From Thermoplasmata archaeon (GTDB taxonomy: Archaea > Thermoplasmatota > Thermoplasmata > Lutacidiplasmatales > UBA184), in NCBI GenBank assembly GCA_030043405.1, contig JASHXS010000143.1, positions 1 to 13,123 of the forward strand: a stretch of DNA of 13,123 nt. Direction: 5' to 3'. Under the pieces are notes generated by a model. The model saw only the letters and a list, made by a program, of their open reading frames with translations. It was not told the origin of the DNA and searched no databases. Positions 5,281-12,700 of the stretch are shown here, piece by piece; the stretch's first letter is position 1, and each line of letters starts with the position of its first letter. The position numbers and the translations under genes were made by a program.

Positions 5281-5387
5281 CGCCCGTGCTGGGATTCGAA
5301 CCCAGGTCTGAGGCTCCGCAGGCCCCTAGGATAATCCATTGCAGCGAATCCGGGAGCGGCCCGGATCCGTAGCTACCCCACACGGGC
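5281..5387 (-). tRNA. tRNA-Arg(GCG) with an intron in the D-loop
   Basis: On the minus strand the acceptor halves GCCCGTG (5387-5381) and CACGGGC (5288-5282) pair perfectly, with discriminator G at 5281 and no encoded CCA. The T-arm CTGGG-TTCGAAT-CCCAG is intact. The anticodon arm is GGGGC-CTGCGGA-GCCTC, with anticodon GCG at 5319-5317, which reads the Arg codons CGC/CGU. The variable loop AGAC is short. The D-arm starts GGGTAGCT and ends GGATTATCCT, but about 31 extra nt separate its halves. A20 after the GG pair and C35 match the usual Arg identity elements. Removing the insert gives a normal type I tRNA of about 76 nt, close to the archaeal tRNA-Pro/Arg D-arm pattern. Other anticodon readings (CCC or GCA inside the insert) fail because their stems do not form. 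Confidence 0.9.
5339..5369 (-). other. Apparent 31-nt D-loop intron of tRNA-Arg
   Basis: The insert folds as a bulge-helix motif. The exon-side GTAGC pairs with GCTGC inside the insert. A 3-nt bulge TAC follows on the 5' side, then a 9-bp inner stem GGATCCGGG/CCCGGATTC closes a CCGCT loop. A 3-nt bulge AAT lies on the 3' side after GCTGC. Cutting after the second base of each bulge, as archaeal splicing endonuclease does, removes 31 nt. Exact ends could shift by one or two bases because the outer helix is weak. Confidence 0.72.
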
Positions 5388-5430
5388 ATTCCCTTCGGGA
5401 GGCGTCCCGGCGGCGCGGAGCGGGGTCGCG

Positions 5431-5438
5431 TATAAAAG
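5431..5438 (-). promoter_or_regulatory. Probable TATA box for tRNA-Arg
   Basis: CTTTTATA on the minus strand lies 44-51 nt before the mature tRNA 5' end, predicting a start near 5405-5410 and a leader of about 20 nt removed by RNase P. The same bases read TATAAAAG on plus, so a role for gatD cannot be excluded. Confidence 0.5.
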
Positions 5439-5478: not shown

Positions 5479-5521
5479 CCGAGCCCGGTTCCCCGCAGCC
5501 ACTGGGCTTCTGGTTGACCGT

Positions 5522-6832
5522 ATGGGGGAGGAGCAGACCACCGACCCGTGGCCCGAACTCTCGGCCCTCCCGATGGGCCGTCGCGTTGAGCTCGAGGACG
5601 GAAGCGGTCGGACGTACGTCGGCACTGTGGTCCCCCATCACGACTTCTCGGGCGCCCGGGTCCTTCAACTCAAACTAGCGAGTGGATACAACGTCGGCGT
5701 TCGGGTGGGGCCAGGAGCGAAGTTCCGCATCCTGCCCGACCTCCCCCGAGAAAGCCGGAACCCGCCGCCGGCGGTCCGTACCGGCTCCCCGGGCGGCCCC
5801 GCGGTCGCGCTGCTCACCACCGGTGGGACGATCGCCTCTCGGGTGGACTACGAAACCGGTGGCGTCCGGCCTGTCCAGGGAGAGGCGGAGATCCTCGAAT
5901 TTTACCCCGAATTGGGCAAGGGAGGACCGGTCCGGATCGTCCCGGTCTTCGACCGGCTCAGTGAGGACCTCCACCCCGAGGACTGGGTCACTCTCGCCGA
6001 GCAGGTGGTGCGCGCATTCCGCGACGGCGCCGTTGGCGTCGTCATTGCCCACGGCACGGATACGCTCGGGTTCACCGCCGCGGCGCTCAGCTTCCTGCTG
6101 ACGGACCTGCCCGGTCCGGTGGTGCTGGTCGGGGCCCAACGCTCTCCGGACCGGCCGTCGTCCGACGGTCCGTCGAACCTCCAGGTCGCCGTCCAAGTGG
6201 CTCGGGAGGCTCGGCTCGGAGAGGTGGTGGTCGTCATGCACGGCGGGTCGTCGGACCGTGCCTTCGCGATCCACCGAGGGAACTGGGTCCGGAAGATGCA
6301 TTCCAGCCGACGCGACGCCTTCTCGAGCCGGAACGGACCGCCGCTGGGCTCGGTGACGGACGGCCGACTGGAGCTGGGCCCCCTCGCTCGGCCCCCGTTC
6401 CCCGGCCCGGCCCGCTTCGACGGCCCCATCGACACCCGAGCCGTGCTCCTATGGTTCTACCCGGGTCTGAATCCCGACCGCGCGGGCTTGCTCACGACCG
6501 GTGCGCGGGGAGTCGTGCTGGCGGGCACCGGCCTCGGCCACGTCGCCTCCGACCACCTCCCGTGGATCCGCCAGGCCACCTCGGCGGGTACGGTCGTGGC
6601 AATGACCACTCAATGCCTCGGCGGGCGCGCGGACCCGTATGTCTACGCCACCGGCCGCGAACTGCTCCGCGCCGGCGTCACCTACTTGGACGACCTCTTG
6701 CCGGAGACGGCGTACACGAAGATGCTGTGGGCGCTCGGCCACGCCTCGACCGCGAACGGCGTCGTCGAACTGCTGCGTACCCCGCGCGCCGGGGAGTTCA
6801 TCGAGCGGCACCGACCGGTCGGAGGACTGTGA
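5522..6832 (+). CDS. gatD: Glu-tRNA(Gln) amidotransferase subunit D (asparaginase-like glutaminase)
   Basis: GatD releases ammonia from Gln/Asn for GatE, which amidates Glu-tRNA(Gln); the GatDE complex is found only in archaea. The 436-residue length is normal for the family. Residues 1-70 form the small N-terminal domain, followed by a linker and the type I asparaginase fold. All catalytic positions expected from characterised GatD are present: T100 in LLTTGGTIAS, T179-D180 in AHGTDTLGF, and K258 in VRKMHSSRRDAF. The later GLGHVASD and TTQCLGGRADPYVYATGR stretches are family-typical. The frame is open further upstream to 5339, but that would run through the tRNA gene, and ATG 5522 gives the expected N-terminus. 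Its stop overlaps the gatE start by 4 nt (GTGA), suggesting coupled translation and equal subunit amounts. Confidence 0.96.
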   Translation: MGEEQTTDPWPELSALPMGRRVELEDGSGRTYVGTVVPHHDFSGARVLQLKLASGYNVGVRVGPGAKFRILPDLPRESRNPPPAVRTGSPGGPAVALLTTGGTIASRVDYETGGVRPVQGEAEILEFYPELGKGGPVRIVPVFDRLSEDLHPEDWVTLAEQVVRAFRDGAVGVVIAHGTDTLGFTAAALSFLLTDLPGPVVLVGAQRSPDRPSSDGPSNLQVAVQVAREARLGEVVVVMHGGSSDRAFAIHRGNWVRKMHSSRRDAFSSRNGPPLGSVTDGRLELGPLARPPFPGPARFDGPIDTRAVLLWFYPGLNPDRAGLLTTGARGVVLAGTGLGHVASDHLPWIRQATSAGTVVAMTTQCLGGRADPYVYATGRELLRAGVTYLDDLLPETAYTKMLWALGHASTANGVVELLRTPRAGEFIERHRPVGGL

Positions 6833-10988: not shown

Positions 10989-11452
10989 CGCGCGCCCCGG
11001 GCTGCGACGCGTTCCTTCAGCAGCAGACGCGGGTCCTGCCCGCCGACCGTCAGGCCGAGCGAGACGCACGTCCCGATGACCTGGTTCGCCCGTTCCTCGG
11101 CGGTGCGGCCCTCGAGCTCGTCCCCCTTCGCCTCGGCGATGCGATGAACGGCGGCGAGCGAGACGTCCCCGACGGTCTCCGTCTTCGGCTTGCCCGAACC
11201 CTTCTCCTTCTTGGCTTCCTTCAGGAGCAGCGCGGCGACCGGCGGACGGCCGACGACGAGCGTGAAGGCCCGCGTGTTCGGGTCGACGCGGATGATGACC
11301 GGCACCCGCATGCCGCTGAACTGCTTCGTCTCCTCGTTGATCTTCGCGACGACCTGCCCGACGTTCACGCCGAGCGGGCCGAGCGCCGAGCCAAGCGTCG
11401 CCCCGGCCGCCGCCTTGCCGCCCTCGACGAGGACACTCACTTCAACTGCCAC
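10985..11452 (-). CDS. rpl11: Large-subunit ribosomal protein L11
   Basis: L11 (uL11) binds 23S rRNA at the GTPase-associated centre. The 155-residue length fits archaeal L11. The N-terminal domain carries VEGGKAAAGATLGSALGPLG (9-28) and VNVGQVVAKINEETKQFSG (29-47); the RNA-binding C-terminal domain includes LKEAKKEKGSGKPKTETVG (77-95) and ANQVIGTCVSLGLTVGG (122-138). The GTG at 11452-11450 is the start: it gives the expected VAVEVSVLVEGG N-terminus, with GGGGAGG 8 nt upstream. It begins inside the last codons of spt5 (11-nt overlap). In many archaea L11 is followed by L1, L10 and L12; here an unrelated small gene follows. Confidence 0.96.
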   Translation of the reverse strand: MAVEVSVLVEGGKAAAGATLGSALGPLGVNVGQVVAKINEETKQFSGMRVPVIIRVDPNTRAFTLVVGRPPVAALLLKEAKKEKGSGKPKTETVGDVSLAAVHRIAEAKGDELEGRTAEERANQVIGTCVSLGLTVGGQDPRLLLKERVAARGAR

Positions 11453-12440
11453 CTTTCGAACCTCCCCGTTCCAGCATGCGGACGTGGTCGCCCCGGACCG
11501 TGACCGGGATCGGCACAACCGCCTCGATCAGCTCGACCGTGATCTCCTCTTTCGCCTGGTCGATCTTCTTGACGCGGGCCTTCTCGCCCTTGAAGGGCCC
11601 GCTGATGAGTTCGACGATCGCGCCCTCGACGAAGCCCTCGACCGTGATCTTCGGCACGAGGAGCGGCTCGACCTCCTTCAGGGTCGTTTCGCCCTCGACG
11701 AGTCCGCGGGCCTTCCGAATGCCCTTGAGCATCTCGCGGACGCCCTCGAAGCTCATCCCTTCCGCGAAGACGTAGCCGCGCAACGAACTCGGCACGAGGA
11801 GGGCGAAGACGACATCCGGCTTCTCCTCCGCGCGGGCGAGGAGGGTGTCGGCGACCTCGCGTTCGTACCCGCGCGAGGTCTTGATCGCGAGAACGGCCTG
11901 GCGGGCGACGCAGGCGAGTGTCAATCGGACCGGCGTCCCCGACTCGTCCAGGTCGGCGGACAGGCGGACCTCGACCCGGTCGCCGTACCGCACCCCGACC
12001 GGCGCCGTCACTTCGAAGGAGAGCGCCACCGGGGTGTTCGGCTGGAGCGTGAGCGGGACCGTCTCCTTCCGGGCGAACAGTTCGGCGAACTGCCGCTTGC
12101 CCGGGGGCTGCCACCGCACCGGCCACTCCGCCCCTTCGTCCGGGTAGGTGGAGGTGTAACCGATCTCGATGGCCAGCGCGACGGTCGCCGGGCCCGGGGC
12201 CTTGCTGGACAGGACGGCGGAGAGCGTCGTGACCATTCCGGCGGTGACGTTCCGCACGGTATCGTCCGCCGCCTGGAGGGTGAGGAACGCCTTCGTGTCG
12301 TGCTTCGGCTGGGCGGCCACCTCGGCGCGCTCGGCTGCCGGCATCAGGAACGACGGCTCCGGCGCCGCCGGCTTCTTCTCCGGCGGCGCGGGGGTGCCCG
12401 AGAGCAGTCCGATGTCCTCCTCGTTGATCCTTCCCGACAT
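11442..12440 (-). CDS. spt5: Transcription elongation factor Spt5 with long N-terminal extension
   Basis: The C-terminal part is a standard archaeal Spt5 (NusG-type): an NGN domain (about 181-264) with QAVLAIKTSRGYEREVADTL and SLRGYVFAEGMSFEGVREML, then one KOW domain (about 265-325) with GAIVELISGPFKGEKARVKK. It binds the RNA polymerase clamp with Spt4 and helps processivity. The unusual part is residues 1-180: a Pro/Glu/Ala-rich start (1-50), then a beta-rich stretch with PLTLQPNTPVALSFEVTAP and GVRYGDRVEVRLSA, resembling an Ig-like/NEW3-type sandwich. Well-studied archaeal Spt5 proteins are about 150 residues. The ATG at 12440, after AGGTACC, gives 332 residues; a frame extension of 14 codons into secE is less likely. 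There is no signal peptide at this start. Confidence 0.93.
   Translation of the reverse strand: MSGRINEEDIGLLSGTPAPPEKKPAAPEPSFLMPAAERAEVAAQPKHDTKAFLTLQAADDTVRNVTAGMVTTLSAVLSSKAPGPATVALAIEIGYTSTYPDEGAEWPVRWQPPGKRQFAELFARKETVPLTLQPNTPVALSFEVTAPVGVRYGDRVEVRLSADLDESGTPVRLTLACVARQAVLAIKTSRGYEREVADTLLARAEEKPDVVFALLVPSSLRGYVFAEGMSFEGVREMLKGIRKARGLVEGETTLKEVEPLLVPKITVEGFVEGAIVELISGPFKGEKARVKKIDQAKEEITVELIEAVVPIPVTVRGDHVRMLERGGSKGGS
11461..11467 (-). promoter_or_regulatory. Ribosome-binding site of rpl11
   Basis: GGGGAGG on the minus strand, 8 nt before the GTG of rpl11 and inside the end of spt5. It decides the GTG start over upstream in-frame alternatives. Confidence 0.6.
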
Positions 12441-12454
12441 GGTACCTGGGGCGC

Positions 12455-12700
12455 TTACAGCGTAGAGAAGAAGTTTGCCCACAGCCAGGGGCCGGCCTGG
12501 GTGAAGAAAATGTACAGCGCGAAGCCGGTCATGCCGATGAGGACCGCGCCGAGGAAGGTGACCTGGAGGACTCGGACGTACTCCTCCGAGGTCGGTCGTC
12601 GGGCCATGCGGAGGATGCGGCCATACTTCCCGTGACCGAGCGTCCGCAGCCGACCGTCGAACTCCTCCTGAGCCCGGCGCGCGCGGTCAAGGAAGGCCAT
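12455..12700 (-). CDS. secE: Preprotein translocase subunit SecE (Sec61-gamma)
   Basis: SecE is the small clamp subunit of the SecYE-beta channel in the cytoplasmic membrane. The 81 residues show the family layout: an amphipathic N-terminal helix (AQEEFDGRLRTL, 10-21), a basic hinge (RILRMARRPTSEEY, 28-41) and one TM helix (about 45-67, VLQVTFLGAVLIGMTGFALY). Pro36 and E39-E40-Y41 before the TM match the conserved hinge. The C-terminus ends with the hydrophobic PWLWANFFSTL. Start ATG 12700 is preceded by AGGTTACC, the same ribosome-binding layout as spt5. It lies 6 bp after ftsZ and 14 bp before spt5, the common archaeal order secE-spt5-rpl11. Confidence 0.93.
   Translation of the reverse strand: MAFLDRARRAQEEFDGRLRTLGHGKYGRILRMARRPTSEEYVRVLQVTFLGAVLIGMTGFALYIFFTQAGPWLWANFFSTL

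Follow-up and report, generated by a model that had tools for sequence, protein, structure and literature searches.

The window, a stretch of 13,123 nucleotides (contig JASHXS010000143.1, assembly GCA_030043405.1) from the metagenome-assembled genome (MAG) of a soil archaeon, carries on its minus strand a tRNA-Arg(GCG) gene in which the D-arm halves are held apart by a hairpin of about 30 nt. Comparison with relatives indicates by conservation that the gene is functional and that the insert is a genuine D-loop intron. A sequence-only reading of this DNA, which named no strand, had proposed such an intron, with a bulge-helix structure, and this was borne out by conservation, by covariation in the hairpin and by intron-free orthologues. 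It is very probable that this is a working tRNA gene with a splicing-endonuclease intron at position 17/17a, which would be excised by EndA and its exons joined by RtcB; the excision, the exact cuts and the enzymes' action are what we infer from the sequences. It is one of many introns in tRNA D- and T-loops of the lineage, which would not have been predicted from its endonuclease type.

As described in the sequence-only reading, the acceptor, T and anticodon arms are perfect. The acceptor arm has 7/7 pairs (GCCCGTG/CACGGGC, discriminator G73), the T arm 5/5 (CTGGG/CCCAG) and the anticodon arm 5/5, one of them G-U, closing the loop CTGCGGA. Two 3-nt bulges on opposite strands lie around a 4-bp helix at the exon-intron borders, as in a bulge-helix-bulge (BHB) motif. 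In the transcript, exon GTAG (positions 12-15) would pair with intron CTGC so that three bulged nucleotides flank the helix on either side, and a 10-bp hairpin would form within the intron; the single-chain alpha'2-type EndA of the lineage would then cut both bulges, and RtcB would ligate the ends to give the D-loop AGCTTGGATTA, resembling that of intron-free relatives. The strict hBHBh' motif was not seen in the sequence or the alignment, in which no pairing stands directly beside the 3' bulge on the exon side. Since no helix adjoins the bulge there, the motif is a relaxed one (HBh' or bulge-helix-loop).

Conservation was examined by a DNA search of 121 genomes, comprising the window's own MAG (G000) and 120 relatives, with the best candidates of each genome, up to seven, being scored. 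The unit recurs in relatives at 105-110 nt and is full-length in 58 of the 73 same-genus genomes (G000 counted; G057 cut by a contig end); in G005 it is split into two pieces at two contig ends. Fifty-nine genes from 57 genomes were read, G057 and G005 being excluded and G017 and G022 contributing two each. Comparison of the gene in relatives, which had been proposed with the sequence-only reading, revealed the D-loop intron in all 59 and in other genera of the family. The exons are near-invariant, the insert varies in sequence and length between fixed borders, and in two genes one acceptor change in the 5' exon is accompanied by a change in its pairing partner. The window's own 3' exon is one base off the sequence common to 52 of the 59. 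A second, intact tRNA-Arg(GCG), the finding that the sequence-only reading had named as speaking against it, did not appear: the window's own MAG (56% complete) gave a single match, no match of the 50-odd nt expected from an intron-free copy was present among the scored candidates of the 73 same-genus genomes, and no intron-free copy was seen in the near-complete G029.

The pairing was supported by covariation in the 53 distinct sequences, where the score was 0.151 compared to 0.083 in shuffles (0/500 as high) and double-change cells numbered 71 vs. 26.5. Sliding the partners by 1-3 columns caused the paired cells to fall from 95.6% to 40-48%. The covariation signal lies in the intron hairpin, in which 85.8% of cells are paired and seven of the ten pairs have changed on both sides; the central helix GTAG/CTRN is paired in 99.1% of cells.

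The sequence-only reading had placed the excised stretch at 5339-5369. Its 3' site was retained, while its 5' site is probably one base off, the cuts favored by comparison of the sequences being C-T|A and A-A|T, with the predicted junction GTAGCT|TGGATTATCC. Joining in silico at these cuts yields a standard tRNA of 75 nt with an 11-nt D-loop, inside the 7-11 nt seen in 97 tRNAs without D-loop introns, and a sequence equal to that of intron-free orthologues, GTAGCTTGGATATCC. The register is favored because of this D-loop length and orthologue match, because it puts the freely variable bases within the intron, and because its helix has 4/4 pairs in three genomes of other families (G085, G131 and G183). 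The same intron might be cut elsewhere, either around the 4-bp helix TAGC/GCTR, at TA|C and CA|N, or so as to release 5339-5369. We regard this as unlikely, although TAGC/GCTR pairs in 53/53 genus sequences, slightly above the value for GTAG/CTRN, and is the register (C16-G) that RNAalifold's own consensus prefers. These cuts would leave D-loops of 13 or 12 nt, beyond the range of the 97 tRNAs; moreover, the 4-bp alternative assigns alignment column 52, which varies among all four bases, to the exon, pairs only 3/4 in G085, G131 and G183, and fails to yield the intron-free orthologue sequence.

Two further explanations concern the insert as a whole. If it were retained in the mature tRNA, the product would have an enlarged D-loop, and such a loop would upset the D-loop/T-loop contact that tRNAs need. 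The insert's ends, with 3-nt bulges and a 4-bp helix, its freely varying sequence, the identity of the joined product to intron-free relatives and the presence of splicing enzymes, RtcB included, in relatives all make retention very improbable. Slightly less credible still is a pseudogene or assembly artefact, in which an insertion has broken the tRNA and the good copy is missing from an incomplete MAG. The low completeness of the window's own MAG would allow for it, as would the lack of any match better than E 1.0e-8 in 14 of the 73 genomes of the genus, of which one is 94% complete and two have no match at all. Against it stand the near-invariant exons of the 59 genes beside a diverging intron, with paired acceptor changes in two, the full-length matches in the other genera of the family, the conserved place beside gatD, and the lack of an intron-free copy in G029.

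To follow the intron beyond the genus, 400 genomes of the class were scanned with a covariance model under stricter filters; the figures given here hold among the matches listed. In other genera of the family, at least 22 of 25 genomes had matches of 105-110 nt above 106 bits, and the intron was present in all 11 of the genes read. Three other families carry an insert at the same place, and two further families have an anticodon-loop intron instead. Within the order, the intron of G074 (family f3) sits at this position but is shorter; in G073 and G075 (f2) the D-loop intron is absent and the same tRNA-Arg(GCG) gene has an anticodon-loop intron (L141, L142), as it does in G087 (f15; L235). A D-loop intron is present in the tRNA-Arg(GCG) of G085 (f13), a longer insert at the D-loop place was read by eye in G131 (f24), and in G183 (f23) a related tRNA-Arg(CCG) has a D-loop intron. 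Intron-free tRNA-Arg(GCG) was read at 20 loci of other families.

Other tRNA genes of the same genomes were also found to be interrupted. Among the 28 tRNA matches of G000, seven have complete T-loop introns at 59/60 (Asn, Gly-TCC, Arg-TCT, Ala-GGC, Glu-CTC, Ser-CGA and Asp; loci L007, L011, L021, L022, L023, L026 and L029), and the Ser-GCT and Gln-CTG genes leave their contigs inside the T-loop (L025, L027), so that probably nine carry such introns when the contig-cut pair is included. ARAGORN placed 37/38 introns in Tyr and Leu-TAA. The tRNA-Pro(UGG) of G000 (L251, G000:C127:2553-2661; 76-bit model match) has by eye a D-loop insert at the same place, also read in L252, L253, L254, L257 and L259. 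In G029, whose listed completeness is 100%, there are 13 T-loop introns, and D-loop introns interrupt Arg-GCG, Lys-TTT (L192/L242) and, by eye, a CAT tRNA (L172); in total 15 of its 42 tRNA matches have D- or T-loop introns, Lys carrying both kinds. Thirty-five T-loop introns were seen in the fetched loci of 8 of 10 genomes and none in those of G087 and G106; counts beyond G000 and G029 are lower bounds, because almost only weak matches were fetched there. Position 57 covaries with the T-loop intron: G57 stands opposite C in 16/16 cases, and A57 opposite G in 13/19 and U in 6/19, an association with a probability of 2.5e-10 if dealt at random and uncorrected for kinship. The 4-bp helix is complete in 21/35, while three pairs form in the 13 with A57/G and in one with G57. 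The T stem serves as the outer helix of these introns, unlike the 3' bulge of the D-loop intron. Several weak tRNA matches in G075 (L202, L206, L208-L210, L212) have a normal T arm and acceptor end with odd 5' parts; these may represent the 3' portions of genes interrupted by long introns.

The type of splicing endonuclease, which the sequence-only reading had suggested identifying, was determined for the lineage. In relatives EndA is one chain of ~354 aa with two alpha-like repeats and the catalytic triad in the C-terminal repeat, i.e., the alpha'2 type. The Crenarchaea-specific loop (CSL) is an insert of 15-18 residues and the ARMAN-specific loop (ASL) one of 11, and the CSL site carries a conserved Lys (PMC12397907). 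Among the best 120 homologues listed, neither insert was found: the corresponding segment is 6 aa in the C-terminal repeat of 116 and 7 aa in the N-terminal repeat of 115 (the remaining 4 and 5, respectively, were not parsed), compared to 16 residues in A. pernix EndA. An EndA of relaxed specificity, as the sequence-only reading had suggested, is plausible, and another of its loops may do the CSL's job; possibly the route was a longer basic loop, PRGG-x-KTPSRYW, in the N-terminal repeat. We give about even chances to the broader proposal that in Lutacidiplasmatales a CSL/ASL-free alpha'2 EndA gained relaxed specificity by such another route and that roughly one tRNA gene in three then acquired introns in its D- or T-loop.

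A number of observations pull against the proposed splicing. Reviews report that efficient removal of relaxed introns is confined to (alpha-beta)2 and epsilon2 enzymes, alpha'2 being narrow (PMC6379350), that Korarchaeum was the only archaeon pairing an alpha2 enzyme with non-canonical introns as of 2014 (PMC4033280), and that the missing loop may limit alpha'2 to canonical motifs (PMC12397907). As these reviews hold alpha'2 to the canonical BHB, efficient cutting of a relaxed motif is doubtful. In the window's own MAG the EndA frame is truncated by a contig end at 205 aa and RtcB was not found, the MAG being 56% complete; the genomes compared themselves include MAGs. The central helix shows little covariation because it hardly varies, so that its support is constancy; pairs changed on both sides number 8 vs. 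6.4 in shuffles, with 34/500 reaching 8. The single-sequence precursor fold contains the 10-bp intron hairpin but neither the central helix nor the cloverleaf, and the favored helix of the tRNA-Pro(UGG) intron has one mismatch.

The surprise is real but not absolute, given reports that homodimeric enzymes are able to cut bulge-helix-loop-like motifs (PMC8707768), that A. fulgidus EndA excises a bulge-helix-loop-like intron at 37/38 from full-length pre-tRNA (PMC6379350) and that three thermophilic euryarchaeal methanogens also have non-canonical introns (PMC3218864); because of the latter, Euryarchaeota are not new as hosts. The kind of intron is itself already known. Those of Thermoproteota (Crenarchaeota), e.g., at 20/21, 56/57 and 59/60, are likewise short, of bulge-helix form and at non-canonical positions, and as in the present lineage some species have many intron-bearing genes per genome and some genes two introns (PMC4090602, PMC3218864); the enzyme there is (alpha-beta)2 with a CSL, whereas here the host is a member of Thermoplasmatota with an alpha'2-type EndA. 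Korarchaeum is similar in combining non-canonical introns with an enzyme of homodimeric type, but that alpha2 enzyme shares the specific loop (PMC4033280), and no CSL-size insert was seen here. Methanopyrus kandleri EndA is (alpha-beta)2, whereas here a single chain holds both repeats. The Asgard Atabeyarchaeia and Freyarchaeia are wetland-soil archaea that likewise have many non-canonical tRNA introns, but belong to another phylum and have introns in 92-95% of tRNA genes (PMC11291895).

The assignment of the genome to Thermoplasmatota, on which the sequence-only reading had made its argument conditional, agrees with sequence identity: a 3.1-kb stretch of G026, from the same genus, occurs letter for letter in a contig of MAG SubAcS13-64, placed in Ca. 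Lutacidiplasmatales (PMC9287336), and a match of the lineage to that order is thereby supported. The word 'intron' occurs 0 times in the main text of PMC9287336, and the lineage, abundance and enzyme pairing of such introns were not found in the literature searched. Non-canonical tRNA introns are usually pictured as having spread wherever EndA acquired a CSL or ASL; this lineage has many introns with neither insert and therefore offers a natural experiment on what determines EndA specificity, involving a single protein and a few short transcripts. A relaxed CSL/ASL-free EndA, if true, would break the rule that non-canonical introns occur only with loop-bearing endonucleases.

The gene was also expected to be missed or misnamed by a simple finder, and this holds for the tools run, as the ARAGORN and Rfam results show. 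ARAGORN without introns reported no tRNA at this locus, and with anticodon-loop introns allowed it named the gene tRNA-Pyl(CTA) or tRNA-Gly(CCC); the Rfam tRNA model gave 23.2 bits, under its 29-bit cut-off, and covered only 5287-5343. Our own intron-aware tRNA fitter scored the tRNA-Arg(GCG) gene at 45.3; 60 Markov-shuffled versions of the window, 1.57 Mb with both strands counted, yielded a single fit, of score 16.9. The lowest-energy unconstrained precursor fold has -54.4 kcal/mol (z -2.67; 2/200 shuffles equally good). Simple finders may thus undercount or misname the tRNA genes of this soil clade, the Pyl/Gly calls being an example.

Table 1. Features of the tRNA-Arg(GCG) locus in window coordinates.
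Feature	Position	Strand	Basis or remark
tRNA-Arg(GCG) gene with D-loop intron, 107 nt, CCA not encoded	5281-5387	minus	fit and conservation
5' exon, positions 1-17	5371-5387	minus	first 16 nt same in 57/59 genus genes
3' exon, position 17a to 73	5281-5338	minus	one sequence from GGATTA onward in 52/59 genus genes
Anticodon GCG	5317-5319	minus	sequence and fitter
Intron, favored register, 32 nt, position 17/17a	5339-5370	minus	register argument; alternatives 5339-5369, 5340-5369
Central helix H, 5' strand GTAG (exon, positions 12-15)	5373-5376	minus	pairs with 5341-5344
Central helix H, 3' strand CTGC (intron)	5341-5344	minus	in relatives CTR, then C, T or A
5' bulge C-T|A	5370-5372	minus	probable cut between 5371 and 5370, register argument
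3' bulge A-A|T	5338-5340	minus	probable cut between 5339 and 5338, register argument
Intron hairpin helix h', 5' arm, 10 bp	5360-5369	minus	RNA fold and covariation
Intron hairpin helix h', 3' arm	5345-5354	minus	RNA fold and covariation
Intron hairpin loop	5355-5359	minus	RNA fold
Possible TATA-like element of the tRNA promoter (CTTTTATAC)	5430-5438	minus	by eye, sequence only
gatD, divergent neighbor	5519-6832	plus	NCBIfam TIGR02153, E 1.3e-126; 5519 is the first base of the stretch searched, start codon unproven

A GatD match lies beside tRNA-Arg(GCG) in 28 of 29 genus loci, the 29th being shortened by a contig end. Elsewhere in the window, a Spt5-family protein is encoded at 11445-12482 on the minus strand, with ~198 residues preceding the matched Spt5 part and a provisional start codon.
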